Shown: positions 43,379 to 60,508 of the stretch, one piece after another
Layout: each line of letters starts with the position of its first letter
Position numbering within the stretch: the stretch's first letter is position 1
NCBI RefSeq assembly: GCF_900177415.1
Contig: NZ_FXAF01000011.1
Location: forward strand, 620,001 to 684,000
Origin: Xaviernesmea oryzae
Lineage (GTDB): Bacteria > Pseudomonadota > Alphaproteobacteria > Rhizobiales > Rhizobiaceae
Reading direction: 5' to 3'
Length of the DNA stretch: 64,000 bases
Translations under genes and position numbers: made by a program
Notes under the pieces: generated by a model
Told to the model about the DNA's origin: nothing
The model's input: only the letters and a program-made list of their open reading frames with translations
The model's database searches: none

Positions 43379-43635
43379 ACCTTCAGCCCTCCAAGGGCAC
43401 GCTGTGCTATCCAATGTAGTATAACAGCACCCAAAATCCAACCTGCCATGATGACTGCCTGACTCACGCTGGCGGAAGCGGGACTGAGCGACAGCACTTG
43501 TCCGAGAACACCCACAGCCACAAATGCCGTCGAAAGGCGATCCAATGCGCCGGCGATGAGTTTGCGACGTTCGTTATTCACAAGGACAAGCCGACGTTCT
43601 TCTTTGTCGGAAGCGTCCGCCGTAGATTCCGTCAT
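43375..43635 (-). CDS. 86-aa membrane protein of unknown function, coupled to murB
   Basis: The protein has a charged cytoplasmic-type N-terminus ([20 protein letters not shown]) and two hydrophobic helices (about residues 31-50 and 58-79, the latter [19 protein letters not shown]). The layout looks like a small holin-like or accessory membrane protein, but I cannot name a family. The ATG at 43635 overlaps the murB stop by four bases (ATGA), and its own stop overlaps the 35-aa gene in the same way. GC is lower than in murB, hinting at a later addition to the cluster. A longer frame up to 43707 overlaps murB and is unlikely. Confidence 0.75.
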
Positions 43636-44606
43636 TCGTTCGTCGCGCCCTGAAACGGCTTCACTTCGCGGCCGGGCATGAAGATGCCGAGTCGCTTGAT
43701 CTCCCATTCGAGCTTGATGCCGGCGTGTTCGAAGACCCGCTGGCGGACCGTCTCGCCGAGATATTCCAGGTCGTAGCCGGTCGCATGGCCGATATTGATC
43801 ATGAAGTTGCAGTGGAGCGACGACATCTGCGCGCCGCCGCTCATCAGGCCGCGGCCGCCCGCCTCGTCGATCAGCTTCCAGGCCGAATGGCCCTCGGGAT
43901 TCTTGAAGGTCGAGCCGCCGGTCTTCTCCTTGATCGGCTGCACGGTCTCGCGATGCTGGCGGACCGCATCCATCTCGGCGCGGATCTTGGCGCGATCCTC
44001 GGGGTAACCTTCGAAGACGGCATGCGTGAAGATCAGGTCCGCCGGGGCGGCCGAATGGCGGTAGCTGTAGCCCATCTCCGCCTTCGAGAACACGTGCTTG
44101 TTGCCCTTGCGGTCGACGGCATGAACCTCGGCGACCCGGTCGGCAGTCTCGGTGCCGTTGGCTCCGGCATTCATGCGAAGCGCGCCGCCGATCGAGCCCG
44201 GAATGCCGTAATAGAAGGCGAAGCCGCCGATCCCGTTGTCCATGGCCATGGCGGCGATATGCTTGTCCGGGCAGATGGCGCCGGCCTGGATGCGGTTCTC
44301 GCCGACGAGGTCGAGGCCGCCGAACCCCTTGGCCGAGAGGCGCAATACGACGCCCGGAATGCCGCCGTCACGCACGAGCAGGTTCGAACCGACGCCGACC
44401 ACCGTCAGCGGCACCTCCTCCGGCAGGATCTGCAGGAAGGTGACGAGGTCGTCGATGTCGTGGGGCTGGAACATGAGCTCGGCAAGGCCGCCTGCCTGAA
44501 ACCAGGTGACGCGATCCATCGGCGCGTCCGGCGTGAGGCGCCCGCGCAGTTTTTCGACGCCAACCCCCAACGACGCCAGAAGCTTTTCCCCATTCACCTG
44601 TTTCAT
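43632..44606 (-). CDS. murB: UDP-N-acetylenolpyruvoylglucosamine reductase
   Basis: This 324-residue FAD enzyme reduces the enolpyruvyl group to make UDP-MurNAc. Motifs: [16 protein letters not shown] near residue 75, the flavin segment [20 protein letters not shown] near 135, GYSYRHSA, and the catalytic serine/glutamate region [20 protein letters not shown]. It lies three bases behind murC and overlaps the 86-aa gene. The order murG-murC-murB-ddl is standard in alphaproteobacteria, but here it is broken after murB. Confidence 0.95.
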
Positions 44607-44609
44607 TTC

Positions 44610-46019
44610 CTATCGTCCCGATATGCTTTCCAGTTCCTTCGGCAATGCGGCCGCCCACTGCGTAATATTGCCAGCCCCCAGAAGAACCACGAAATCACCC
44701 GGTTTAGCAATGCCCGACACAATCGAAGCGAGTTCCGTGGGCGACGCCATGTACCGCGCGTCGCGATGGCCGCCGGAGCGGATGCGGGCCACCAGCGCCT
44801 CGGAATTGACGCCTTCGATCGGCTCTTCTCCCGCCGCATAGACCGGTGCGAGGATGATGCTGTCGGCATCGTTGAAGCAATTGGCGAAATCCTCGAACAG
44901 GCTCGAAAGACGGCTATAGCGGTGCGGCTGGTGCACGGCGATGATGCGGCCCTGGCATGCCTCGCGCGCCGCCTTCAGCACCGCCTTGATCTCCACCGGA
45001 TGGTGGCCGTAGTCGTCGAAGACGGACACGCCGTTCCAGGTGCCGGTGAGCGTGAAGCGGCGTTTGACGCCGCCGAAGGCGGCCAGCCCCTTGCGGATGT
45101 CCTTCTCCGAAATGCCGAGCCGGTTGGCGACGGCGATCGCGGCGGTGGCGTTCGAGATATTGTGGCGGCCGGGCATCGGCAGCGTCAGATCCTTGAAACT
45201 GAAGACCCGTCCGGTCCGGCGGCGACGGATTTCCACATCGAAGACGGACTTGGTGCCCTCCATGCGGACGTTGAAGAAGCGGGCGTCGGCCTGCGGGTTC
45301 TCGCCATAGGTGACGATCTTGCGGTCCTCGATGCGGCCGACGAGGGCCTGCACTTCCGGATGATCGAGGCAGAGCACGCCGAAGCCGTAAAAGGGCACGT
45401 TCTCGACGAACTGCCGGAAGGCCGCCCGCACCGCGTCGAAATTGCCGTAGTGATCGAGATGTTCCGGATCGATATTGGTGACGACCGCGACATCGGCGGG
45501 AAGTTTGAGGAATGTGCCGTCCGATTCGTCGGCCTCCACCACCATCCATTCGCCCTCGCCCATGCGGGCATTGGTGCCGTAGGCGTTGATGATGCCGCCA
45601 TTGATGACGGTCGGATCGAGCCCGCCGGCTTCCAGAAGGGTGGCGACCATCGACGTGGTCGTCGTCTTGCCGTGCGTGCCGCCGATCGCGATCGCATTGC
45701 GGAAGCGCATCAGTTCGGCGAGCATCTCGGCGCGGCGGACGATCGGCAGCGACCTTTCGCGCGCCGCGACGAGCTCCGGATTGTTCTTCTTGATGGCGGT
45801 CGACACGACGACGACTTCCGCATCGCCCAGATTTTCCGGCTGGTGGCCGACGAAGACCGGGATGCCCTTGTCGCGCAGGCGCTGGACGTTGGCGCCATCG
45901 GCCTGATCCGAGCCCTGCACCTTGTGGCCGAGATTGTGGAGCACCTCGGCGATGCCGCTCATGCCGATCCCGCCGATGCCGATGAAATGAACGAGCCCGA
46001 TGGCCTTCGGCATCTTCAT
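44610..46019 (-). CDS. murC: UDP-N-acetylmuramate--L-alanine ligase
   Basis: This 469-residue Mur ligase adds L-Ala to UDP-MurNAc. The N-terminal [18 protein letters not shown] binds the UDP, the ATP site is [17 protein letters not shown] near residue 115, and [14 protein letters not shown] marks the C-terminal domain. The ATG overlaps the murG stop by four bases. Confidence 0.96.
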
Positions 46020-47170
46020 GCCCGCACTCCCCTGTCCTGCAACATCGTGTCTGCCGATGTCTTGAATTCCGTAACCGATCTGCGCTCGGCAATAGCGACG
46101 ACCATGTCCGCAAGCAAGCTCGCAGCGTTCGGATGCCCTGCCGTTTTCGCCGCCGCGGCCATTTTCTCCAGCCGGTCCGGCTCCTTCATCGCCGCCGAAA
46201 TGAGGGAAGCAAGCTTCTCCGGGGAAAGCTCCGATTGCGGCACGACCTGCGCACCGCCCGTCGCGACGAGCGCCGCCGCGTTGGCCGCCTGATCGTGATC
46301 CAGAGCATGCGGGTAAGGCACGAGAATGGCCGGGCGGCCGATCACCGCGATTTCCGAAACGGTCGAGGCGCCGGAGCGGCAGACGACGAGATGCGCCGTC
46401 GCAAGCCGTTCCGCCATGTCCGAGAAGAACGAGGAGATATCGGCCGGCGCCCCGAGTTTCGCAAAGCAGGAGGTGACGCGATCCTTGTCCTCGGGACGCG
46501 CCTGCTGGGTGACGGCGAGGCGGTCGCGCTCGGCCTTGTCGAGCAGGCTCAACGCCGTCGGTACGGCGGAGGAAAAGAACTGCGCACCCTGGCTGCCGCC
46601 GAAGACCACGAGGCGGAACGGATCACTGCCGCGGGAGGCGACGTAGGGAATGTTCGAAGCGGCGAGCACTGCGGGACGCACCGGGTTGCCGGTCGTGACC
46701 GTCTTGTCCGCATAGGGGCCGTCGCTCTCGGGCAGGAAGCCGCCTGCGATCGCCTGGACCTTGGCCGCCAGGGCCTTGTTGGCGCGGCCCATCACGGCAT
46801 TCTGCTCGTGGATCATCGACGGCACGCCCATCGAGGTCGCAGCCATCAGCGGCGGCACGGTGGGATAGCCGCCGAAACCGACGACGGCGAGCGGCTTCAG
46901 CCTGCCGATCAGGCGGCGCGCGGCTCTGAGCCCGGTCCAGAGCTTCCAGCCGGTGCGGATGACGGCAACCGGGTTCTTGGAACCCAGGGTCGCGGAGGGC
47001 ACCACATGGATTTCCTCGGCCGGAAACGTGCCGGCGAACCGCTCGGCCCTGCTGTCGGTGACGAGATGGACGGAATAACCGCGCTCGCGGAGCTCGTAGC
47101 CAAGCGCCTCGGCGGGAAACACATGGCCGCCGGTTCCCCCTGCGGCAAGCAGGATGATGCCTTTGGTCAT
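46016..47170 (-). CDS. murG: UDP-GlcNAc:lipid I N-acetylglucosaminyl transferase
   Basis: This 384-residue membrane-associated glycosyltransferase (GT28) makes lipid [19 protein letters not shown] at the N-terminus and [15 protein letters not shown] near 95 form the acceptor site; [20 protein letters not shown] near 270 and DHDQAANA bind UDP-GlcNAc. Its stop overlaps murC. Upstream of it, 160 bases with a palindromic repeat pair separate it from ftsW, a place where these two genes are usually closer. Confidence 0.96.
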
Positions 47171-47189
47171 CGAGATGCCTCCACCCTAC

Positions 47190-47313
47190 ACCCCCCTCTG
47201 TCACTTCGTGACATCTCCCCCTCAAGGGGGGAGATCAAAGGGAGGATGCCGCACTGGCCATTTGCCGATCTCCCCCCTTGAGGGGGAGACGCCCGGCAGG
47301 GCAGAGGGGGGTT
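47190..47313. repeat. Inverted pair of mosaic palindromic repeats between ftsW and murG
   Basis: A unit at 47190-47236 (CCCCCCTCTG, hairpin TGTCACTTCGTGACA, then ATCTCCCCCTCAAGGGGGGAGAT) faces one at 47268-47313 (ATCTCCCCCCTTGAGGGGGAGA, hairpin GCCCGGCAGGGC, then AGAGGGGGG). It sits inside the mur/fts operon, so it is transcribed and could affect murG expression or mRNA processing. Confidence 0.8.
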
Positions 47314-47330
47314 AACTTGAATCATATTTA

Positions 47331-48485
47331 TCACTCCGCCGGCACGCCCGAGGCGACCCGGAACAGGCTTCTCTCCTGCGCCCGCTTCTCGGGACGGTGG
47401 CGCGTCAGCGCCAGAACGAAGCCGGCCGTGACACAGATCGCGATCATCGATGAGCCGCCATAGGAGATCAAAGGCAGCGTCATCCCCTTGGCCGGCATCA
47501 GTTCGAGGTTGACGCCGATATTGATCAGCGACTGCATGCCGATCTGCAGCACCAGGCCCGCGACCGCAAAACGGTTGAAGTCGTTGCGCTCCTTGAAAGC
47601 GTGGTTGAGGCCGCGCAGCACGACGAAGGCGAAGATCGCCACCAGCGCCATGCAGAAGATAATGCCGAATTCCTCCGCGGCAACGGAGAAGATGAAGTCC
47701 GTGTGGCTGTCCGGCAGGATGCGCTTGACGATGCCTTCGCCCGGTCCCTGGCCGAACCAGCCGCCCTGGAGAATGGCCTCATGGGCGGTCTCGATCTGGA
47801 AGCGGTCCCCCTCTCCAGTCAGGAACTTGTCGAAACGCGCCGTTACGTGCGGCAGCATGTAATAGGCCGCGACGATGCCCCCGGCGCCTACGCCGCCGAG
47901 CAGGAAAATCCAGAGCCACGGCATGCCGGCCATGAAGAACATGCCGCCCCAGACGACGCTGGTCAGAATGGTCTGGCCGAAGTCCGGCTGGGCGACGAGC
48001 AGCGCCGCAACGATGCCGAACAGGATGATGGCGAAAAGATTGCCGGGAATTTCCGGCTGGCGCGCGTGTTCGGCAAAGAGCCAGGCGCAAACCACGACGA
48101 AGGCCGGCTTCATGAATTCCGATGGCTGGATGGAGAAGCTGCCGATGCCGAGCCAGCGGCGCGATCCCTTGACTTCGACGCCGAAAAACAGCGCCAGCAC
48201 CATCATCGCCACGGATATGACCAGCAGCACGATCGCGGTGCGGCGCACCTGTCTCGGCGTCAGGAAGGACAGTCCGATCATCACCGCCAGCGACGGCAGC
48301 AGGAAAATCGCGTGGCGTTCGACGAAATGGAAGCTGTCGAGACCGATGCGCTCGGCCACCGCCGGCGAAGCGGCGAAGGAAAGCATGAAGCCGAGGCCCA
48401 TGAGGAGCACGAAGGCAGCAAGGAAGAAACGGTCGATCGTCCAGAACCAGTCTGCGAGCGGCCCACGATCTGCGCGGCTTACCAT
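47331..48485 (-). CDS. ftsW: Peptidoglycan glycosyltransferase FtsW
   Basis: This 384-residue SEDS-family protein polymerises septal glycan from lipid II with FtsI. About ten hydrophobic segments are visible. Family signatures include RRWLGIGSFSIQPSEFMKPA (central), GEGDRFQIETAHEAI..GGWFGQGPGEG with the catalytic region, and the C-terminal MPAKGMTLPLISYGGSSM. It lies 25 bases after murD and is followed by the repeat pair before murG. Confidence 0.95.
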   Translation of the reverse strand: MVSRADRGPLADWFWTIDRFFLAAFVLLMGLGFMLSFAASPAVAERIGLDSFHFVERHAIFLLPSLAVMIGLSFLTPRQVRRTAIVLLVISVAMMVLALFFGVEVKGSRRWLGIGSFSIQPSEFMKPAFVVVCAWLFAEHARQPEIPGNLFAIILFGIVAALLVAQPDFGQTILTSVVWGGMFFMAGMPWLWIFLLGGVGAGGIVAAYYMLPHVTARFDKFLTGEGDRFQIETAHEAILQGGWFGQGPGEGIVKRILPDSHTDFIFSVAAEEFGIIFCMALVAIFAFVVLRGLNHAFKERNDFNRFAVAGLVLQIGMQSLINIGVNLELMPAKGMTLPLISYGGSSMIAICVTAGFVLALTRHRPEKRAQERSLFRVASGVPAE

Positions 48486-48510
48486 CTGTCAGCTTCCCCT
48501 TCCGTCCCGA

Positions 48511-49923
48511 TCAACCGAGGTCGATCAACATCGTAACGCCGTCGAGTGCTGCGACATGGCCGACGAAGGCATCGCCGCGGACCTCGAAATTCTTGAACTG
48601 ATCGAAGCTGGCGCAGGCGGGCGACAACATCACCGCGGACGGCGTGGCGTCGGCGCTCGCGTCTTCGGCGGCGTGGGCGACGGCCCTTTCCAGCGTGCCC
48701 GATATTTCATAAGGCACCGCCTCTCCGAGTGTCGCCGCGAAGGCCGGCGCCGCCTCTCCGATCAGGTAGGCTTTGACAATACGCCCGAAAAGTGGAGCAA
48801 GGCTTACGATCCCGCCCTCTTTCGGCAGACCGCCCGCGATCCAGTAGATGCGGTCGTAGCTGGAAAGCGCCGGGGCGGCCGCATCCGCATTGGTGGCCTT
48901 CGAATCGTTGACGAAGACGACCTGGCCGCCCCCCTGGTTCGTCAACCGGCCGACCGGCTGCATGCGATGCTTGAGGCCGGGGAAGGATTTGAGGCCCGCG
49001 CGGATGTCCTCCCTGGATACGCCGACGGCGAGGCATGCGGCGATCGCCGCAGCGGCGTTCTGGGCGTTGTGGCTGCCCTTCAGCGTCTGGATGCCGCCGA
49101 GATCGACGAGCGTCGACGACGCTCCGCCATGCGCTTCGACGATCCGGGCGCCTTCGGCATAGAGGCCATCGGCGACGACGCTGCGCTTGGAAATCCGCCT
49201 GACGGCGACGCCGGCACGCTCGACGCGGTCGGCGATCAGGGCGCTGTAGGAATCGTCGACGCCGATCACCGCCGTCCGGCTGCCGGCGACCAGCCGCTCC
49301 TTCACGTCGGCATAGTGCTGCATCGTGCCGTGGCGATCGAGATGGTCGGGCGTGAGATTCAGGAGGATGCCGGCGGTCGGATCGAGCGTCGGCGCAAGAT
49401 CGATCTGGTAGGACGAGCACTCGACGACGAAGTAGCGCTCCGACTTCGGCGGATCGAGCGTCAGGATCGCGGTGCCGATATTGCCGCCGAGCTGCGTATC
49501 GCGTCCGCTCGATGTCAGGATATGGGCGATCAGTGCCGTGGTGGTCGACTTGCCGTTGGTGCCGGTGATGGCGATGAACGGGCAATCCGGCGCATGCGCG
49601 CGCCGCTCGCGGACGAAAAGCTCGACATCGCCGATGATCTCGACACCGGCCGCCCGGGCGAGATCGACGCTCCAATGGGGCTTCGGATGGGTGAGCGGCA
49701 CGCCGGGTGACAGCACGAAGGCGGCCTGCGCCGGCCAGTCGATGGTGCGCAGGTCCGCGGTCGCGATCCCCTCGCCCGCCGCCTTCGCGACGCTGTCCGG
49801 ATTGTCGTCCCAGGCGACGACCCTCGCGCCACCGGCGACGAGCGCTTTTGCCGTCGCAAGGCCCGAGCCGCCGAGCCCGAAGAGCGCGACCTGCTTGTCC
49901 CGGAATGTGGTGACGGGGATCAT
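48511..49923 (-). CDS. murD: UDP-N-acetylmuramoylalanine--D-glutamate ligase
   Basis: This 470-residue Mur ligase adds D-Glu. The N-terminal [18 protein letters not shown] binds UDP, the ATP loop is [19 protein letters not shown] near residue 120, then [15 protein letters not shown] and the C-terminal [20 protein letters not shown], which is highly specific for MurD. It lies seven bases behind mraY. Confidence 0.96.
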
Positions 49924-49930
49924 CGTGGCG

Positions 49931-51034
49931 TCACCGCAGCTTGAGCGTCGAAAGGCCGAGCATCGCCAGCCCGACGGCGATGATCCAGAAGCGGATCACC
50001 ACCTGGCTCTCCGTCCAGCCGAGCTTTTCGAAATGGTGATGGATCGGCGCCATCAGGAAGACGCGCCGGCCGGTCATCTTGAAGAAGCCGACCTGGATGA
50101 TGACCGAGAGGGTCTCCATCACGAAGAGGCCGCCGATGATCGCCATGACGATCTCGTGCTTGGTGGCGACGGCGACGGAGCCGATCAGGCCGCCGAGCGC
50201 CAGCGAACCGGTATCGCCCATGAAGATCGCGGCCGGCGGCGCGTTGAACCAGAGAAAACCGAGGCCCGCGCCGATCACCGCGCCCAGGATGACGGCAAGC
50301 TCGCCGGTGCCGGGAACGAAATTGATCTGCAGATAGTTCGCGAAAACCGCGTTGCCCGCGAGATAGGCGATCACGCCAAACGACGCGGCTGCGATCATCA
50401 CCGGCACGATGGCGAGCCCGTCGAGACCGTCGGTCAGGTTCACCGCATTGCCGGCCGCGACGATCACGAAGCCGCCGAACAGCACGAAGAAGATGCCGAG
50501 ATTGATGAACAGGTCCTTGAAGAAGGGAAAGGCGACCGAGGTGCCGAGCGTCGGATTGGTCGACGAGCCGGTGGCGACCGCCATGCGCATCATGAAGAAG
50601 ACGGCGATGCCGGCGATCACGAATTCGATGGCGAGGCGGGCCTTGCCGGAAAAGCCCTTGTCCGTCTGCTTCGTGACCTTGAGGTAGTCGTCGTAAAAAC
50701 CGATCGCACCGAAACCGAGCGTCACCAAAAGCGTGGCGACGACGTAGATGTTGGAAAGGTCGGCCCAGAGAAGCGAGCCGCCGACGATGCCGGCGAGGAT
50801 CATCAGGCCGCCCATGGTCGGCGTGCCGGCCTTCTTGAAATGGGTCTGTGGCCCGTCGGCGCGGATCGGCTGACCCTTGCCCTGACGGACGCGAAGCGAG
50901 TCGATGATCATGGGACCGAAGAGGAAGACGATCAGGGCCGAGGTGAAGAGGGCGGCACCGGTCCGGAAGGTGATGTATCGGAACAGATTGAAAAATTGAA
51001 GTTTATCCGCCAGTTCCACAAGCCAGATCAGCAT
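49931..51034 (-). CDS. mraY: Phospho-N-acetylmuramoyl-pentapeptide transferase
   Basis: This 367-residue integral membrane enzyme makes lipid I. Ten hydrophobic helices are visible. The catalytic aspartates lie in [12 protein letters not shown] (about residue 118) and [14 protein letters not shown] (near 200), and the C-terminal loop has [19 protein letters not shown], a MraY hallmark. [13 protein letters not shown] is also conserved. It follows murF by 28 bases. Confidence 0.97.
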
Positions 51035-51062
51035 TCAGGGCCCTTTCTCAAGCCGCGTCTTA

Positions 51063-52496
51063 TCAAGATTGGCGCCCCGTGTCGGAAAACGCCGGATAGT
51101 TGTCAAGAAGTGCGGCGACGATCTTGCCGAAACCGAGCCCGAGCGACGACTTCACCATCACCACGTCGCCGGGCATGACCGAGCGCACGACGAAATCGGC
51201 AAGCTCCGAGGTCTTCTCGCGGTATTCCACCTGGACGCTGTCCGGCAGTGCGTCGCGCAGCGCCGCCATCTCCGGACCGGCAAGCCAGACGTGTTCGATG
51301 CCGGCGGCGAGCAGCGGGCCTGCCAGTTCCTCGTGCACCCTGGCGGAGAATTCGCCCATCTCGAGCATGTCGCCGAGCACGGCGATTCGCCGGCCGGTCA
51401 GTTCCGGCGTCGCGGACGCAAGCAGCGCGATCGCCGCGCGCATGGAAGCCGGATTGGCATTGTAGCTTTCGTCGATCAAGGTCAGGTGGCCTTCACCGAT
51501 GCCGAGCAGGTGGCGCTCGCCCCTGCCTTTCACCGGCTTCAGCGCGGCAAGCGCCTCCATTGCCCTCGCCATGTCCGCCCCGACGAGCAGGCAGGCGCCG
51601 AGCGCCGCCATGGCGTTTTCGGCGATATGCCGGCCGGGCGCGCCGATATGGATTTCCGACGTCTCGCCGCTCAGCACGGCCCAGACGGTCGAGCTCTCCG
51701 CATTGCCCTCGAAATCCGCCAGACGAAAATCCGCCTTGGCGTGCTGGCCGAAAGTATAGACGCGCGCAATCCCCGCCTCCTGAGCCTTCTGCTCCAGAAA
51801 GCCGAATTGCCCGATATCGCGGTTGAGGATCGCCGCGCCGCCCGGCTCGACGCCTTCGAAAATCTCGGCCTTGGCCGCGGCGATCTCCTCGAGGTCCTTG
51901 AAATGGCCGAGATGGGCGGCGGCGATCGTGGTGATCATCGCCACATGCGGCCGCACCATCTTCACCAGGGGCCGGATCTCGTCCGGATGGTTCATGCCGA
52001 TCTCGAAGACGCCGAACTCGGCATCCGCCGGCATGCGCGCCAGCGTCAGCGGCACGCCCCAGTGATTGTTAAAGGACGCGACGGCCGCATGCACCTTGCC
52101 GGAGGGCGCCAGCACGTGCCGCAGCATCTCCTTCGTCGTCGTCTTGCCGACCGAACCGGTGACGGCGACGATCCGGGCATTGCTCCGCTCGCGCGACGCC
52201 ACCGCGAGCCGGCCAAGCGCTGCCAGCACATCGTCGACGACGATCATCGGCGCGATCAGCCGCCCTAGCGCCGGAAGCTTCGCCTCGCTGACGACGATGA
52301 GCGAGGCGCCGTTCGCCACCGCCATGCTGGCGAAGTCGTGGCCGTCGACGCGATCGCCCTTGATGGCGAAGAAGGCCTCGCCTTCGCCGATCGACCGGCT
52401 GTCGATCGAAATGCCCGTAATGCCTTCCGGCAGCGTGCCGATCGGCCGGCCGCCTATTACGGCCGTCATGTCCTCAGAGGTCCACAGAAAGCTCAT
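51063..52496 (-). CDS. murF: UDP-N-acetylmuramoyl-tripeptide--D-alanyl-D-alanine ligase
   Basis: This 477-residue Mur ligase adds the D-Ala-D-Ala dipeptide made by Ddl. The ATP loop is [19 protein letters not shown] near residue 115; [15 protein letters not shown] and GMNHPDEI are the following MurF motifs; [17 protein letters not shown] near 335 is typical. The ATG overlaps the murE stop by four bases. Confidence 0.96.
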
Positions 52497-53968
52497 GGCT
52501 TCAGCTCCTCCAGCGCCTTGCGTACTTCCACATGGTCGGAAAACGGCAGGACCGTCGTGCCGATCGTCTGGCCTTCCTCATGGCCCTTGCCGGCGACGAT
52601 CAGCGTGTCGCCGGAATGCAGCATCCTGACCGCCTCGCCGATCGCCTGCGCCCGGTCGCCGATTTCGATCGCGCCGGGTGCCGCCGCCATGATTTCGGCG
52701 CGGATCACTTCCGGCACCTCGGAACGCGGATTGTCGTCGGTGACGATGACGACATCGGCAAGCCGCGTCGCCACCTCGCCCATGATCGGCCGCTTGCCCT
52801 TGTCGCGATCGCCGCCGCAGCCGAAAACCACGATCACGCGCCCCGTCGTGAAGGGGCGGACGGAGGTCAGGACGTTTTCCAGCGCATCCGGCTTGTGGGC
52901 ATAGTCGACATAAGCAGGCGCGCCGTCCTTCGTCTGGCCGACGAGTTCGAGGCGGCCGGAGGCGCCCGTGAGCTTCTCCAGCGCCGCCATCGCGACGGAA
53001 GCCGGAACGCCGGTCGACATGGCAAGACCGGCCGCGACGAGAGCGTTGGCCACCTGGAAATCGCCGGCGAGCGGAATGTCGACCTCGAATATCTCGTCGC
53101 CGAAATGCACCTCGGCCATCTGCCGGTGGCGGAAATGCTCGACGCGCTTGAGAGAAAGATAATCGCCGCGCCGCCCGACGGTGCGCACATCGAGACCCGC
53201 CGCGGTCGCCGCCCGGACGGCTTCGTCGGACCAGGCATCGTCGGCGAAGATCACGGCCGGCGCGCTCTTCGGCAGCAGCGTATCGAAAAGCCGCATCTTG
53301 GCAGCCATGTAGCTCTCGACCGTCGGATGGTAGTCCATATGGTCGCGGCCGAGATTGGTGAAACCGGCGGCCGACAGCCGCACGCCGTCGAGCCGGCTCT
53401 GGTCGAGACCGTGGCTTGAGGCTTCCATCGCCGCATGGGTGACGCCTTCCGCAGCCAGTTCCGCAAGAAGTTTCTGGAGTTCCACCGGATCGGGCGTCGT
53501 CAGCGAGCCGTAATCGTTGCGGGCCGGCGAAACGACGCCGGTCGTGCCGATCTGCGCCGCGGCATGACCGGCATGCGCCCATATCTGGCGGGTGAAGGAG
53601 GCGACGGAGGTCTTGCCCGCCGTTCCCGTCACCGCAACCATGGTTTCCGGCTGGTCGCCGTAGAACCGGGCGGCGGCGAGCGCAAGAAGCCGGCGCGGAT
53701 TGGAAACCGCGAGAACCGGAATGCCTGTTTCGGCAGAATGGGCGGCGATTGCCGCGACCGCACCGCGCGCGGCGGCATCGCCGATATAGGCCGAACCGTC
53801 GGCCTTCGAGCCTGCAAGCGCGGCAAACAGCATGCCGGGCTTCACCTTGCGGCTGTCGGAGGAAAGGCCTGTCACATCGAGATCGCCCGCCGGCCCCGCC
53901 ATCAGCTCGGCTATTTCCGGAAAGTCCTGACCGGCAAGGTCTCGCAATTTCATCGACTGATTGTCCAT
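52493..53968 (-). CDS. murE: UDP-N-acetylmuramoyl-tripeptide synthetase, meso-DAP adding
   Basis: This 491-residue Mur ligase adds the third residue of the stem peptide. The ATP loop is [12 protein letters not shown] near residue 115. The specificity motif is DNPR at residues 412-415 (VTDDNPRSE), which marks meso-diaminopimelate enzymes and not lysine enzymes. The loop carries TAGKTS where many MurE proteins have TNGKTS; Ala at that place is seen in alphaproteobacteria, so I do not regard it as a defect. It lies 52 bases after ftsI and overlaps murF. Confidence 0.95.
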
Positions 53969-54020
53969 TCTGAGCGTCGTCCCGTCGTCCCCACGAATCG
54001 TCCGCTCAAGTTGTTATCGC

Positions 54021-55763
54021 TCAATAAGACACAAGCAGGGCAGAGCCGTCATTGCCGAATTTCGGCTTTACACCGAGAATAGGCGCCGCGCGGCTGATGA
54101 TTTCCTTCACCATCGGCGCGGCGGAGGTGGCCGCGAGCGCCGCGCCGTTGCCCTTGTCGGTCTTCGGCTCATCCGAGAACGTCAGGACGACATATTGCGG
54201 ATTGTCCATCGGAAAGGCCGCCAGGAACGCGTTGAAGTTCTTGTCGTGCGCGTAGCGCCCGTTGACCACCTTGTCGGCCGTGCCCGTCTTGCCGCCGACG
54301 TCGAAACCGGCAACGCGCGCATTCCTGCCGGACCCGTTGATGCCGTTCCAGTCGAACAGGAAACGCATGTCCTTGCTGGTCGAAGGCTTGAGCACCTGGG
54401 CCGCCACCTTGTCGGCCTCTTCACGCGTGCGCGGCAGGAAAGTCGGCTCGATCAGCTTGCCGCCGTTGACGAGGGCCGCCCCCGCGACGGCGGTCTGCAG
54501 CGGCGTCGTCGAGACGCCATGGCCGAAGGAGATGGTGATCGAATTGATCTTCTTCCACTCGCGGGGCTGGCTCGGCTGCGCCACTTCCGGAAGCTCGGTC
54601 TGCATCTTCGTCAGGAGACCGAGCTTGGTGAGGAAATCCTTGTGGCCTTCGATGCCGACGGTATCGGCGATCTTCGCGGTGCCGATATTGGAGGAATACT
54701 GGAAGATTTCGGGAACGCTGAGCACGCGTCCCTTGCCGTGGAAATCCTTGATGGTGAAGCCGCCGATGCGGATCGGGTAACGCGCGTCGAACGTGCTCTG
54801 CAGGTTCATCTTGCCGGAATCGAGCCCCATGGCGATGGTGAAGGACTTGAAGGTCGAGCCCATTTCGAACGTGCCGTTCGACATGCGGTTGAACCACCCC
54901 TCCTCGCCGCCGGCGGCCGGATTGTTGGGGTCGAAATCCGGTGCGGACGCCATGCCCAGTATCTCGCCGGTGTGGACGTCGAGCACGACCGCGCCGGCTC
55001 CGATGGAGCGATACTTGATCATCGATTCGGCCACCACGTCGCGGACGATCGACTGGACGCGCAGATCGATCGACAGCTTGACCGGCTCCAGCGGCTGGCT
55101 CGACGTCATGCCGACGGCCGCGAGGTCCGCAAGACCCTGGCTGTCGACGTAACGCTCCATGCCGGCGACGCCGCGATTGTCGATATTGACGTAGCCGACG
55201 ACATGCGCCGCGGTCGGACCGCCCGGATAGAAGCGGCGCTTTTCAGGCCGGAAACCGATGCCCGGAATGCCGAGCGCGAGAATCTGGCTCTGCTGCTTCG
55301 GCGTGAGCTGGCGGCGCAGCCACTGGAAACGGGAGTTGGACTTGAGCTTCGAATAGGTCGATCTCACGTCGAGATCGTGAAGCACGGTCGAGAGCTTCTC
55401 GATGACTTCGTCGGCGTCAACGATCTTATGCGGCTCCGCGAAGAGCGAAACCGTGCGGATATCGGTCGCCAGCAATTCCCCGTTGCGGTCGACGAGATCG
55501 GGCCGCGAAGCCATCAGCCGGTCGGCCGGCAGGATGCTCGACGTCGTCAGCGGCTGCGCCACGCCGTATTGCACGAGGCGGCCGCCGATGACGCAGTAGA
55601 AGACGGCGAAACCGGCGATCAGCAGACCGACGCGGTTCCTGGCCTGCGCCGACTTGCGCTTGCGGGTGCCTTCGAAAGACGCCGCTTCCGAAACGCGGCC
55701 GCGGCTGCCGGAGGAGAAATGCGCCCGGCTCTTCAAGACCATGATGCGGGACAGAAAAGACAT
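54021..55763 (-). CDS. ftsI: Septal penicillin-binding protein (FtsI/PBP3 type)
   Basis: This 580-residue class B PBP cross-links septal peptidoglycan together with FtsW. After a basic N-terminus comes one membrane helix (VGLLIAGFAVFYCVIGGRLV), then the dimerisation module (ATDIRTVSLFAEPHK) and the transpeptidase with the SxxK serine at Ser303/Lys306 (MGSTFKSF), the SSN motif (FQYSSNIGTAK) and KTGTA starting at Lys492. Its ATG overlaps the ftsL stop by one base (TGATG). Confidence 0.96.
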   Translation of the reverse strand: MSFLSRIMVLKSRAHFSSGSRGRVSEAASFEGTRKRKSAQARNRVGLLIAGFAVFYCVIGGRLVQYGVAQPLTTSSILPADRLMASRPDLVDRNGELLATDIRTVSLFAEPHKIVDADEVIEKLSTVLHDLDVRSTYSKLKSNSRFQWLRRQLTPKQQSQILALGIPGIGFRPEKRRFYPGGPTAAHVVGYVNIDNRGVAGMERYVDSQGLADLAAVGMTSSQPLEPVKLSIDLRVQSIVRDVVAESMIKYRSIGAGAVVLDVHTGEILGMASAPDFDPNNPAAGGEEGWFNRMSNGTFEMGSTFKSFTIAMGLDSGKMNLQSTFDARYPIRIGGFTIKDFHGKGRVLSVPEIFQYSSNIGTAKIADTVGIEGHKDFLTKLGLLTKMQTELPEVAQPSQPREWKKINSITISFGHGVSTTPLQTAVAGAALVNGGKLIEPTFLPRTREEADKVAAQVLKPSTSKDMRFLFDWNGINGSGRNARVAGFDVGGKTGTADKVVNGRYAHDKNFNAFLAAFPMDNPQYVVLTFSDEPKTDKGNGAALAATSAAPMVKEIISRAAPILGVKPKFGNDGSALLVSY

Positions 55764-56224
55764 CAGCGGTTCACCGATCCTGTGGAGATAGCTTCAATGG
55801 AACCGCGCGGCAGCGGGACCGGGATTTTGGGGGCGGGCTTCGCCTTGGCGGCGGCAACGCCCTTCAGAGCCGCCGCAACCTCGCTGTCCTTGCCGGCGAT
55901 GATATCCTCGATCGTCGTCTCCGGCTGCGGCAGCGCCGACCTCATCATCGGCAGTTCCTTCGGCATGGCGAGCTGGGTGGGCTCGGTCGGCGCGAGAGAC
56001 AGTTCGGAATTGTAGACATTGACGAGCCGGTGCAGGCGGTTCGGTTGGGTCAACAGGGCCCAGTCCGCCCTCAGGAGCTCGATCGTGTCCTTTTCCAGCT
56101 TGATTTCCGACTCCAGCCGCCGGACTTCCGCGAGCTTCTCGTCGGCGCGATGCTTGATCGTGTAGGTGACGACGGCGGCTGCCGTCATGATGCCGATCAG
56201 AACGAGATCGAAGCTTCTGAGCAT
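55763..56224 (-). CDS. ftsL: FtsL-type small divisome protein
   Basis: This 153-residue protein has a short N-terminus, one membrane helix (LVLIGIMTAAAVVTYTI, about residues 7-23) and a leucine-zipper-like coiled coil (DEKLAEVRRLESEIKLEKDT). The later part (100-153) is Ala/Pro-rich. FtsL binds FtsB and FtsQ and activates FtsWI. FtsL sequences are poorly conserved, so the call rests on topology, length and position between rsmH and ftsI (three bases after rsmH). Confidence 0.85.
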   Translation of the reverse strand: MLRSFDLVLIGIMTAAAVVTYTIKHRADEKLAEVRRLESEIKLEKDTIELLRADWALLTQPNRLHRLVNVYNSELSLAPTEPTQLAMPKELPMMRSALPQPETTIEDIIAGKDSEVAAALKGVAAAKAKPAPKIPVPLPRGSIEAISTGSVNR

Positions 56225-56227
56225 TCC

Positions 56228-57253
56228 TTACGCTCCCATCTTTGCGAGGCTGGCGAGATCGGGCAGATCGAAAATGGACATGTCGGCGGCCCGCGGCGGT
56301 GCGGCGGTGCGGATGCCTGCCCGCAGCTTCGCGGAACGGGCGCGCGGATTGGCTTCCGCCTCCTCGTCGCTCGCCGCGATCATCGGCTTGCCGAGCGCCT
56401 CGAAGATCACGGGCTTGGCCTCGACCATCGGCAGGTGGCGAGAACCGGAAACCTTGCCGGAGCGATCGGCGAAGAACTGCTTGACGATCCGGTCTTCGAG
56501 CGAATGGAAGGTGACGACGACCAGCCGTCCGCCGGGCTTCAGAACCCGTTCGGCCGCAAACAGCGCCTCGGCGAGTTCGCCGAGCTCGTCGTTTACGAAG
56601 ATGCGCAGCGCCTGGAAGACGCGCGTCGCCGGATGGATCTTGTCCTTGGCCTTGCGGGGATTGACCGTCTCGATGAGGTTCGCGAGGTCGCGCGTGGTGG
56701 CGAAAGGCTGGGAGGCGCGGCGCTTCTCGATGGCGCGGGCGATGCGACCCGCCTGCTTTTCCTCTCCGAGGAACCCGAAGATACGGGTGAGATCGCTCGC
56801 CTTGGCGCGGTTGACGACATCGGCGGCCGAAACGCCGTCCTTCGACATGCGCATGTCGAGCGGCCCGTTCTTCTGGAAGGAGAAGCCCCGCTCCGCCTCG
56901 TCGATCTGCATGGAGGAAACGCCGATATCGAATACCACGCCGTCGAGCCCCCCCTCGGGCGCATGGTCGGCAAGCCGCGAGAACTGCGAATGGATAAGTT
57001 TGAGCCGCCCCCCGGAAGCATCGGCCAGAGCCCGGCCGGCCGCGATCGCCGTCGGATCGCGATCGAGCGCGATCACGTCGGCGCCGGCAGCAAGAAGAGC
57101 GGACGCATAGCCGCCCGCACCGAACGTGCCGTCGAGGATGAGCCTGCCGGGCCGGGGTTCCAGCGCCCGGACGACCTCTTCGAGGAGAACCGGGATGTGG
57201 CGAACCGGTCCGCCTTCGGGCTCGGTTGTTCCGTCGCCTGGATTCGCCACCAT
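56228..57253 (-). CDS. rsmH: 16S rRNA m4C1402 methyltransferase
   Basis: This 341-residue SAM-dependent enzyme (formerly MraW) N4-methylates C1402 of 16S r[21 protein letters not shown] opens the conserved part, [18 protein letters not shown] is the SAM motif, [20 protein letters not shown] is diagnostic, and [16 protein letters not shown] closes the catalytic domain. I chose the ATG at 57253 (MVANPGDG), with AGAGGAG just upstream; the frame runs on far upstream but across mraZ. Confidence 0.95.
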
Positions 57254-57267
57254 CCCGCTCCTCTGTT

Positions 57268-57702
57268 TCATGAAGGGCGCAAACCCGAACGCCCCTCTCT
57301 CGCCGCCGCCTGCGCCTCGTGAAACGCCTGCGGCTGCCACAACTGAAAATGATCCGAGCGCCCGACGAAGGTCACTTCCGAGCCGATTCCCGTGAAGTCG
57401 CGGATGAAATCCGTGACCATCAGCCGGCCCTCCGCATCGAGCCTCATGAAGACGCCGCCGCCATGCACGAGCAGCGACATCCGGTTCGCCTCCGGCGAAA
57501 AAGGATCCACGGAAGCGATCTGCCGCTCGTAGCGATCGAGCAGATCCGGCCCTCCGACGCTGATCGCCGGATAGATGAAATCCTGGAGACAGTATAGCTC
57601 CTGGATTCCCCGCTCCGAAAGAACCGAACGGAAGCTCGCCGGCACGGAGACCCGTCCCTTCGCATCGATCCTGTTCGTCGCATTCGACAGGAAGCGGCTC
57701 AT
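57268..57702 (-). CDS. mraZ: Transcriptional regulator MraZ
   Basis: This protein of 144 residues has two SpoVT/AbrB-like half domains, beginning [20 protein letters not shown] (first) and [17 protein letters not shown] (second), with the DAKGR and DAEGR repeats visible. MraZ forms a ring and represses its own operon by binding TGGGN direct repeats (shown in E. coli). Four such repeats stand upstream (57867-57901). It is the first gene of the dcw cluster. An alternative start lies four codons upstream at 57714. Confidence 0.94.
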
Positions 57703-57866
57703 CACGCCAAACATCCGCCCCGTTGCAGTTCAAGACGGGACCCAGCCCGCCTACACACGCCGCACCGAATACGGCTTCGCCTTCCGGATGGACGAAAACC
57801 CACCCGGCCCTGCGGCCGATACTCGGGGATTGGAGGGCGCTTATTCGCCCTTGTGCAGTGCAGTTT

Positions 57867-57901
57867 TGGGATACCATGGGACCATATGGGCGTCAATGGG
57901 A
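57867..57901 (-). promoter_or_regulatory. Putative MraZ box and overlapping promoter of the dcw cluster
   Basis: Four copies of TGGGN stand at 57867, 57877, 57887 and 57897 (TGGGA, TGGGA, TGGGC, TGGGA), each with a five-base spacer, so the period is exactly 10 bp. On the minus strand TTGACG (57896-57891), a 17-base spacer and TATCCC (57873-57868) form a good sigma-70-like promoter lying inside the repeats, about 165 bases before the mraZ start. MraZ bound here would block RNA polymerase. The repeats read TGGG on the plus strand, opposite to mraZ transcription. Confidence 0.8.
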
Positions 57902-58150
57902 GAAGCCCCGCTTGCCGCTCCCAAACCGGATTTATTTATAAGCCGTTAAGTTTAACAAAGGGTTATTGGCGCAAGCGGAGAAACCGGCTCCGCAGACCGC
58001 CGCAAGTGAATCGCGCGGGCCTCTCAAGACGCTGCAATAAAAGGAATTTCAGGACTAAGGCAAGGAAGGAGCGACCGGAAACGACGCCCCGGAATGCGCC
58101 ATTCGCGCAGCCGGAGAGATTTAGGCCCAGCCCCTCCCGGGGGCCGATAT
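57902..58150. other. Intergenic region between the mraZ promoter and rnpB
   Basis: No gene is visible in these 249 bases. The stretch 57931-57967 is AT-rich. It contains TTAA-N7-TTAT (57952-57966), close to the CtrA consensus with one mismatch, about 60 bases upstream of the mraZ promoter. The end near 58150 holds the T-tract that terminates rnpB. Confidence 0.4.
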
Positions 58151-58152
58151 AG

Positions 58153-58597
58153 AAAAACGCCAGTTGGCCTGTAAGCCGGGTTCTGTATGGCTCCGGTGCA
58201 GGCACCGGAACGTGGCAGCCATTCATCTGGGACGATGCTTGCGCACCGCCTCACGCAACCCACCCGGATGACTGGCCCGGAAACCGGCTGTAGCCCGCGC
58301 TTTCGCTTGGACCCGCGTCATCCCTATTCGGTCTTGCTCCCGGTGGGGTTTACCCTGCCGCCCCTGTTGCCAGCGGCGCGGTGGGCTCTTACCCCACCCT
58401 TTCACCCTTACCCCGCCATTTCAGCCGCTTGAGGTTTCCAAGCGGTAGAAAAAGCGGGGCGGTTTCCTTTCTGTGGCACTTTCCCTGGGGTCGCCCCCGC
58501 CGGATGTTATCCGGCACCGTGTTTCCGTGGAGCCCGGACTTTCCTCACCTCACCGCCTTTCGGCACTGGTGAAGCGCGGCTGCCCGGCCAACTGGCA
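58153..58597 (-). ncRNA. rnpB: RNase P RNA component (class A)
   Basis: This is the catalytic RNA that removes 5' leaders from tRNA precursors. The 5' part reads GCCAGTTGGCCGGGCAGCC and then GGTGAGGTGAGGAAAGTCCG, with the universal GAGGAAAGTCC (CR I). Toward the 3' end come ACAGAACCCGGCTTACAGG (CR V), which is the standard closing element. The first and last helix arms (GCCAGTTGGCC and GGCCAACTGGC) pair perfectly as P1, which sets the ends to within a few bases. TTTTT follows directly, consistent with a terminator. Only about 40 bases separate the 5' end from the upstream gene's stop, so its promoter may lie within that gene's 3' end. Confidence 0.95.
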
Positions 58598-58635
58598 TGC
58601 GGTCCATAACCGACATGGGCGTTGAAGGCCAGAGT

Positions 58636-59829
58636 CTACAGGTAATTTGCCGAAAAATCCGCAGAATAGGCGTCGTCCACGATCCGGCCGTGGAAAATCA
58701 GCTCCGCACCCAGCCTGCCGATCTCGTCGGAACTCTTGGCCGCCGCGCCACAGCCGCCGCTCAAGACGCCGATACGGTCCGCCTCGGTCATGGCGATCGC
58801 CGGGTAGCCGGTCGGCGTGAACGAGGTGACGCAGGCCGCCATGGACGAACGGGAAAGATCGAGCGTCGGCATCAACCGGGTCATGATCTCGGTGAGCCGC
58901 CGTTTCGTGCTTTCGCGCCCGCCGGAACGGAACCACGCACGCACCTCCGGCTCCGTCGGCAGCAGCAGATCGTCCGGATCCCCGCCGATCTTGAGATAGA
59001 TCCTGCCGTCGGGGTAACGCACCGGCGGCAGAAGGTAGATGCCGTCCTCGCCTTCACGCCACTTCCAGATCAGCGACGGCACCCTGCCCCAGACATCCAT
59101 CGCGGCCTCGTCCACCTCGAAGAAGGCCACGGTGCGGGCATAAACCTTGAGATCAAGACGCCGCGGCAAGAGATTCTCGTTGATGGAAAAACCGCCGGCG
59201 GCGACCAGGACCTTCTCGCCCGAATAGATGTTGCCTTCGGCGGTCGTGACCGTGACGGCATCGCCTTCCTGGCGCACGGAGGAAACGGTCTCCGGAATGA
59301 TCGCCGCGCCTTGCCGCCCGGCAAGCTGCGCCTGCGCCTTCACCAGCCGGCGCGGGTTGATATGGCCGGCATCCTTCGGCTCCCACACCCCCTCGCTGCC
59401 GTCAGGGAAGGAGAAGAAGGGAAACCGGTCTGTCAGGTCGGCGTCCGCCAGCGTCTCGGTCGCGACCCCGAGCCTGCCCGCCGCATCGAGAACGTTGCCG
59501 ACATAGGACGGAGCGCCGCCCGTCCGTCTCGGCCCCACCAGCAGGCAGCCGGATTCGGAGTAGAAATCGATGCCGCTTTCGGCGGCGATCTCGCCGTATC
59601 GCGCAATGGACCGGTTGGCGAGGCGTGCCCAGACGGGATCAGGATCGATCGTCCTGGTGATGCGCGCCTCGTCGTAATGACTGGCGAAGACGCCTTCATG
59701 CCGCGCGTAGTCCGCCGGCTCCCCGGGGCCGATCAGCGCCACGCCTTCGGTCCATTTGGAGAGGTGGCGGGCCGCGGCCGCACCCATCATGCCCCTGCCG
59801 ATAACGATATATCTGAACCGTGCCGTCAT
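58636..59829 (-). CDS. FAD-dependent oxidoreductase (DAO family)
   Basis: This 397-residue flavoprotein has the Rossmann start RYIVIGRGMMGAAAARHL with the GxGxxG form GRGMMG, and a C-terminal SGGCGAAAKSSDEIGRLGAEL that binds FAD. It is of the D-amino-acid oxidase/sarcosine oxidase type (MSOX-like); the residue expected to carry covalent FAD in monomeric sarcosine oxidase cannot be judged by eye. Substrate unknown. I set the start at MTARFRYIV with GAGGGCAGG ahead. It stands alone between rnpB and the lytic transglycosylase gene. Confidence 0.83.
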   Translation of the reverse strand: MTARFRYIVIGRGMMGAAAARHLSKWTEGVALIGPGEPADYARHEGVFASHYDEARITRTIDPDPVWARLANRSIARYGEIAAESGIDFYSESGCLLVGPRRTGGAPSYVGNVLDAAGRLGVATETLADADLTDRFPFFSFPDGSEGVWEPKDAGHINPRRLVKAQAQLAGRQGAAIIPETVSSVRQEGDAVTVTTAEGNIYSGEKVLVAAGGFSINENLLPRRLDLKVYARTVAFFEVDEAAMDVWGRVPSLIWKWREGEDGIYLLPPVRYPDGRIYLKIGGDPDDLLLPTEPEVRAWFRSGGRESTKRRLTEIMTRLMPTLDLSRSSMAACVTSFTPTGYPAIAMTEADRIGVLSGGCGAAAKSSDEIGRLGAELIFHGRIVDDAYSADFSANYL

Positions 59830-59899
59830 GCCTGCCCTCTTGATTCCGTCGGCTCGAAAATGCCCGTTTCCACGATGCACTTCCAGCCGTTTTCCGGAA

Positions 59900-60508
59900 T
59901 CAGGATGCCGCGGGCGAAAGCGACGCGGTCTGTTCCGCGGGCTGCTCGGCGGGACGTTGCGTATCCTTCAGGATCGCTTCCACCCGATTGCAATAGCGCC
60001 TGGAGATCGGGTTCATCCGCGTCGCGCCGTGGCCGGCATTGTATCGCAATATGGTGCCGCAGGTCTTGCCGCCGCCCCGTTCGTGGGCGCCTGCCAGATA
60101 TTTCATCCCGTAGCGGATATTCGTTTCCGGATCGTAGAGACCGTAATCCGGCCCTTCATATCCCATCAGGCGGGCCGTTGCTGGCTTGATCTGCATGAGG
60201 CCGATCTCACCGGCCTTGCCTTTCACCGTTGGGCGGAAATTGCTCTCGATCTGGACCACCGCATTGGCGAGCTCGACCGGCACGCCGTATTCATCGGCAT
60301 ATTTCTCGATCAGATCCGCATAATGAACCTGGCGAAGCAGGCGCTTGGCGGCATCCGTGGGTGCAGCAAAACTGGTCTCGCGCGTTTCCCATGGCGTGAT
60401 CAGCGGTTTGGTATAAGTTCTGACGGTATCGTCCTGAGCGCGCACGCGTTCGGTATTCGCGGCGAGCAAGGCAAGACCCGCCGTGACAGCAACAGCCAAT
60501 TTTTTCAT
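59900..60508 (-). CDS. Secreted lytic transglycosylase (SLT domain)
   Basis: This protein of 202 residues has a signal peptide (AVAVTAGLALLAANTERVRA) and a single SLT domain that cleaves peptidoglycan between MurNAc and GlcNAc. The catalytic glutamate is Glu88 in VVQIESNFRP, followed by GEIGLMQIKPATARLMGY and the downstream RYNAGHGATRMN. The small size (about 170 mature residues) resembles VirB1-like or Slt70-tail-like stand-alone enzymes. No secretion system lies nearby. The tail is Ala/Pro/Gln-rich. Confidence 0.88.
   Translation of the reverse strand: MKKLAVAVTAGLALLAANTERVRAQDDTVRTYTKPLITPWETRETSFAAPTDAAKRLLRQVHYADLIEKYADEYGVPVELANAVVQIESNFRPTVKGKAGEIGLMQIKPATARLMGYEGPDYGLYDPETNIRYGMKYLAGAHERGGGKTCGTILRYNAGHGATRMNPISRRYCNRVEAILKDTQRPAEQPAEQTASLSPAAS

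Follow-up and report, generated by a model that had tools for sequence, protein, structure and literature searches.

The operator of the Escherichia coli MraZ protein at PmraZ is reportedly the subject of work by Eraso from 2014. In the sequence of E. coli K-12, GTGGGAAATTGTGGGGCAAAGTGGGAA is found on the sense strand just before mraZ and after a TTGACA. This gives three sense boxes adjoining the mraZ start. A passage of PMC7761207 places them downstream of the -10 element, and MraZ is presented there and in an excerpt of PMC8475190 as a repressor of its own cluster that acts from these repeats. For B. cenocepacia, the same excerpt of PMC7761207 reports that MraZ binds four repeats with a 10-nt period on a fragment probed by gel shift; this site is located downstream of the -10 element and overlaps the transcription start. 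The MraZ sites of Mollicutes are also direct repeats with a 10-nt unit in the mraZ promoter, and in M. genitalium this type of site occurs only once in the chromosome (excerpts of PMC8475190 and PMC5282649). Parts of PMC5089854 deal with two alphaproteobacterial systems: the Rhodobacter dcw cluster with UpsM, which has a long 5′ leader from which a terminator makes an sRNA, and S. meliloti mraZ, with a 5′ UTR of 170 nt and a start inside a predicted terminator. Among the matches listed, titles and abstract starts pointed to no work on the binding or expression of MraZ from an alphaproteobacterium or on its boxes, and no paper combining MraZ and TGGGN was found in a search that mostly covered literature outside subscription.

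Here, we describe the corresponding region of Xaviernesmea oryzae (Rhizobiaceae), analyzed as a window of 64,000 nucleotides. Its minus strand carries the dcw cluster, the presumed regulated unit (43632–57714), in which the division and cell-wall genes run consecutively from mraZ to murB, in the order mraZ-rsmH-ftsL?-ftsI-murE-murF-mraY-murD-ftsW-murG-murC-murB. Herein, murE, murF, and mraY were named from sequence, murD was assigned as a murD-type ligase, and the small ftsL-like gene gave no Pfam match. mraZ (PF02381) spans 57268–57714 on the minus strand, with the ATG at 57702 as the more likely start judging by the conserved MSRF/MNRF. rsmH (mraW) follows at 56228–57253 on the same strand and encodes 341 aa from its own ATG at 57253; PF01795 was matched with a translation beginning at 57259. 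The upstream neighbor, again on the strand of mraZ, is rnpB for the RNase P RNA (58156–58595). Apart from rnpB, an Rfam search over 55000–60000 with E up to 1 returned only sub-threshold matches to Twister-sister and HOTTIP_3, which were taken as chance.

About 150 nt upstream of mraZ, the plus strand reads TGGGATACCATGGGACCATATGGGCGTCAATGGGA at 57867–57901, corresponding to CCCATTGACGCCCATATGGTCCCATGGTATCCCA on the mraZ strand. This array bears four boxes at an exact 10-bp period—TGGGA at 57867, TGGGA at 57877, TGGGC at 57887, and TGGGA at 57897—and 5-nt spacers part these TGGGN direct repeats, which are oriented antisense to mraZ. A promoter on the minus strand is woven into them: The -35 element TTGACG (57891–57896) lies between boxes 3 and 4 in plus-strand order, and the -10 element TATCCC (57868–57873), preceded by a conserved TG, shares its CCC with box 1. 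In mraZ-strand order, TTGACG stands between the first two boxes and TG-N-TATCCC between and over the last two. The two elements are 17 nt apart, which equals TTGAC-N18-TATCC reading leftward to mraZ. The sigma70 consensus of Alphaproteobacteria is TTGAC-N18-TAT, and the promoter core of the window matches it. By the sigma70 consensus of E. coli, TATCCC is a poor -10 element, and a consensus promoter scan of 57000–58500 found none. The exact period of the four boxes, their antisense orientation over both promoter elements, and the TTGACG-N17-TATCCC promoter toward mraZ had all been named in the original prediction; each is borne out by the letters, and those of the promoter are strongly conserved in the arrays of the family.

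The array resembles its E. coli counterpart in its TGGG direct repeats with a 10-nt period, which in both cases lie in the dcw promoter region ahead of mraZ. Unlike the three sense boxes that we read in E. coli K-12, however, the window shows four antisense boxes over the -35 and -10 elements, at a distance from mraZ—a contrast that had been foreseen correctly. The E. coli geometry of sense boxes downstream of the promoter, which we do not treat as defining, is hence absent. The likeness to B. cenocepacia extends to the number of repeats, and, therefore, four repeats are not unusual in themselves, whereas the site of B. cenocepacia downstream of the -10 element differs from the window array. 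The Mollicutes repeats, with their core AAAGTGK-N3, differ in sequence and belong to another phylum. Since the boxes of the window are antisense and lie over the promoter, unlike in E. coli and Burkholderia, it cannot be assumed that regulation has the same sign as in these systems.

Within its 6.07-Mb genome, the array is the sole place that matches the four-box pattern with up to two mismatches (in two overlapping registers). The exact three-box pattern finds the array, again in two registers, and one other place, and backwards control patterns gave 0 matches in this genome. Within the window, the two-box pattern by itself lacks significance: its 3 matches were reached by 21/100 shuffles. 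The genome's only other exact three-box array is located at G000:C5:526172–526195 (TGGGTCCGGCTGGGCTGTCTTGGG).

Conservation in close relatives had been set as a test beforehand, and 80/80 Rhizobiaceae loci—the best 80 of 258 relatives from one scan—show four exact boxes in the same orientation with the same promoter letters. The larger family set of 191 loci (186 distinct sequences) consists of the window, these 80 loci, and 110 more from further family genomes, of which 30 were given by the genome search and 80 taken among its further places. The array is present at a score of at least 34/41 in 190/191 of these loci; the exception, L083, has an upstream sequence of only 90 nt. Four exact boxes are found in 139/191 loci, three in 40/191, and two in 11/191. 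In rounded figures, TTGA, TG, and TA are conserved to 100%, the C of TTGAC to 99%, and the last T of TAT to 91%. For 28 close pairs, chosen by hand and with L025 used twice, the substitution rate amounts to 0.012 in the array vs 0.143 in the 120 nt upstream.

Outside the family, we sampled 100 loci—the 60 best-scoring from order and class searches and 40 picked from the order list—and kept 97 after removal of two duplicates and one locus with short upstream sequence. Three or four exact boxes at 10-bp period, antisense and at most 400 nt upstream of mraZ, occur in 63/97 of them; the remaining loci have two exact boxes (26/97), one (7/97), or none (1/97). Three boxes were found in 0/291 mononucleotide shuffles of these loci, and three sense-strand boxes in 0/97 outside loci and in none of the family loci. 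The antisense, promoter-covering layout is a variant common to many Alphaproteobacteria. In several other families of the order, the row extends to five slots at 10-bp period, the outer boxes being degenerate (CGGG ... TGGA), for example at G295:C4:1685058–1685101.

The array can also be related to the presence of MraZ itself. Out of 199 family genomes, the MraZ profile was found in 159, and BLAST with the window protein added 12 of the other 40, giving 171 genomes with and 28 without MraZ; G001, G110, G144, and G158 among the latter are incomplete. Among the matches listed, the four-box pattern with at most one mismatch occurs anywhere in the genome in 147/199 cases, namely in 144/171 genomes with MraZ vs 3/28 without, and 27/171 MraZ genomes have no such match. 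The three MraZ-less genomes with a match are G016, G091, and G162, and the promoter letters are absent from these matches; in addition, at least one counted match in an MraZ genome (G048) lies away from mraZ. A cleaner test of the link is the local one around rsmH, where a three-box array occurs in 0/25 MraZ-less loci examined (26 have rsmH). Judged from these counts, array and MraZ occur together. The match region of G091, a 1.5-Mb family genome without MraZ, contains at least six head-to-tail TGGGATATAA-type units (G091:C1:196022–196085), perhaps a remnant or else a simple repeat.

We propose, with a probability of roughly 0.88, that the array is the operator of a negative autoregulation by MraZ over the dcw promoter, binding and repression both being predicted from sequence. 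An MraZ oligomer would bind the four direct repeats, whose spacing is close to one turn of the helix. As the boxes are interleaved with TTGAC and TAT, bound MraZ would exclude RNA polymerase, and mraZ would be transcribed less, along with the dcw genes that follow it. Binding, repression, a start near 57861, and a reach of the effect to murB are inferred here. As a putative MraZ element, the array is a known type of operator with a new geometry, and the interpretation as MraZ control, which the original prediction had put forward, is well supported by the comparison.

Could the repeats be merely a promoter with a conserved spacer, the TGGG periodicity being incidental? TTGAC and TG/TAT do rank among the best conserved letters. 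However, the CCC letters of the boxes are conserved to 96–100% in the family vs 35–93% for the non-promoter spacer letters, three to four boxes at 10-bp period persist in the 63/97 loci outside the family, and the MraZ-less rsmH loci are without such an array; we find an incidental periodicity hardly credible. MraZ might, on the other side, bind the array and activate, or tune expression both ways with CtrA or NtrX. For S. meliloti mraZ, a CtrA motif is reported (part of PMC3616915) and an NtrX site predicted (part of PMC7240162), secondary start sites are listed for the mraZ gene of agrobacteria (part of PMC10469942), and the promoter considered here may also be a target of CtrA and NtrX. Yet both the -35 and -10 contacts are occupied by boxes, favoring exclusion over activation, and MraZ is a repressor in E. 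coli (excerpt of PMC8475190), which makes activation or two-way tuning improbable next to repression. With repression by MraZ as the preferred reading, many Alphaproteobacteria would share a form of MraZ control of dcw that has a distinct geometry, antisense boxes woven into the -35 and -10 elements. Hence, it would become possible to predict and test where in rhizobia this division-cluster regulator, itself widely conserved, acts.

Between array and mraZ lies the leader (57715–57866, minus strand). The predicted transcription start at 57861, 7 nt after the -10 element, would place a hairpin of 5–6 pairs with a 6-nt loop (57834–57851, minus strand) near the 5′ end of the mRNA. All five inner pairs of this hairpin are kept in 75/98 distinct near-relative leaders, among which several pair types occur; farther off in the family, they are kept in 3/77, no better than in slid controls. 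Start and hairpin agree in kind with the S. meliloti UTR, although the S. meliloti array was not identified among the loci compared. Unlike the Rhodobacter leader, where a terminator makes an sRNA, the leader of the window keeps an open frame: It is free of stops in the frame of rsmH.

This open frame extends over 549 aa (56228–57877, minus strand), comprising leader, mraZ read out of frame, and rsmH; the first ATG of this frame starts at the border of box 2 in plus-strand order. In the window and the 80 Rhizobiaceae loci, the array-to-mraZ distance is divisible by three, and one frame stays open all the way from the array across mraZ and on into rsmH; the leaders of these 81 loci contain 0 stops in the rsmH frame vs 135 and 91 in the others. 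We further considered 183 distinct family loci with rsmH present, an array score of at least 34, and the array more than 120 nt upstream. In the rsmH frame, the leader is stop-free in 173/183 (other frames 22 and 53), mraZ in 176/183 (third frame 0), and both together in 170/183. Over the 15 nt next to the array, this frame has 1.1 stops per 100 codons, and at most 0.2 thereafter, compared with mostly 1–7 in the other frames. The depletion is thus clear from 15 nt past the array, and the constraint begins about where transcription should. Since pairwise gaps in the leader are mostly 1–2 nt rather than 3, it is the net lengths and the absence of stops, not single indels, on which the in-frame claim is based.

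A by-product of G+C and codon context, in place of selection, might be suspected. In this genome, the other dcw genes avoid such stops as well (T at the critical codon in 36/964 vs 683/4155 elsewhere, mraZ left out), rsmH of the window has no such stops in 340 codons, and taken in this genome alone the stop-free frame would be unremarkable. Among loci outside the family, 24/81 overall have an mraZ without stops in the rsmH frame, as do 15/26 at a G+C of 0.66–0.75, compared to 19/20 family loci in this range. At matched G+C, however, family and outside loci part: 46/48 vs 1/19 at 0.50–0.60 and 109/109 vs 8/23 at 0.60–0.66 (below 0.50, 2/6 vs 0/13). The open rsmH frame is not explained by base composition. 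The same emerges from 63 disjoint sister pairs that were not conditioned on an open frame (189 loci kept, L054 and L104 dropped): mraZ shows 0 stop-changing synonymous substitutions vs 43.3 expected, whereas rsmH shows 286 vs 324.2. For the leader, where mraZ codons play no part, the 43 sister pairs alignable at 75% identity or more give 0 observed vs 21.4 expected, and the other leader frames give 33/45.1 and 30/41.2. Correspondingly, T stands at a stop-completing codon end in 72/4582 cases vs 5171/18722 elsewhere in mraZ and in 762/6254 vs 6498/25779 in rsmH. We hence consider a compositional by-product very improbable and the stop-free frame a strong sign of selection. It is a trait mainly of this family; outside it, 17/64 distinct loci with at least three boxes are open up to the array, all at a G+C of 0.59 or higher.

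The depletion of stops points to translation in the rsmH frame, possibly yielding an extended RsmH. We read it as translation through leader and mraZ, which would either yield an extended RsmH or amount to no more than ribosomes passing through. The more specific idea that ribosomes starting near the 5′ end translate the leader and all of mraZ in the frame of rsmH, yielding RsmH with ~200 extra residues, is put forward only tentatively. Here, the absence of stops would be what is selected, and the extra residues would need no function. Ribosomes in this frame would pass over the start of mraZ and, never terminating, would not reinitiate there, such that MraZ could stay low relative to RsmH. 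Their passage could also keep the leader ribosome-covered and, thus, add a translational arm beside the transcriptional MraZ loop.

Changes in the leader by codon position (71/74/82 in 20 pairs) show no amino-acid constraint, and its G+C by codon position (0.634/0.607/0.593 in 176 open loci) reflects a codon usage that is not coding-like. No conserved start codon was found after the array in the family leaders. The ATG within the array is in the usual rsmH phase in 155/183 distinct loci and out of phase in 28/183, and it sits upstream of the predicted transcription start. A general start at this ATG was rejected, as the rsmH frame is open from the array, or from farther up, in 20/22 shifted-array loci listed. 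AlphaFold2 predicts the 191-residue extension as unfolded (33 sequences, mean pLDDT 49.6, pTM 0.16), and Pfam matches on the 549-aa frame are only those of RsmH and methyltransferases in the C-terminal part.

Further causes of the open frame were tried and dropped. An antisense gene was rejected because none of the antisense frames stays open: They are stop-free in 55 to 81/188 leaders and in 85, 0, and 0/188 mraZ genes. A constraint on RsmH itself is at odds with the MraZ-less genomes, which keep no 200-aa extension: rsmH is present in 26/28, 25 of them with an open frame of 331–403 aa and one with a partial match of 222 aa. The fixed phase of mraZ and rsmH is weakened as proof of a fused frame, for the two genes overlap (in many loci as ATGATG), which accounts for a large part of it. 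Divergence at fourfold sites in the 28 close pairs is lower in mraZ than in rsmH (0.111 vs 0.280), which as a sign of a second frame is no more than suggestive, given that mraZ also falls below rsmH in pairs from outside the family (147/755 vs 304/1070, from 12 pairs less two made of the same genome).

The stop-free frame is more surprising than the regulatory array. If translated, it would constitute a long same-strand overlap in a bacterial gene cluster that ranks among the most studied, and mutants of mraZ and rsmH would have to be read differently: Changes silent in mraZ could alter RsmH. A search that mostly covered literature outside subscription found no paper joining overlapping, rsmH, mraZ, and frame. 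Within the window, the dcw genes (36456–57714) avoid T-ending codons before codons starting with AA, AG, or GA, and, given this avoidance, one off-frame is nearly stop-free in most of them.
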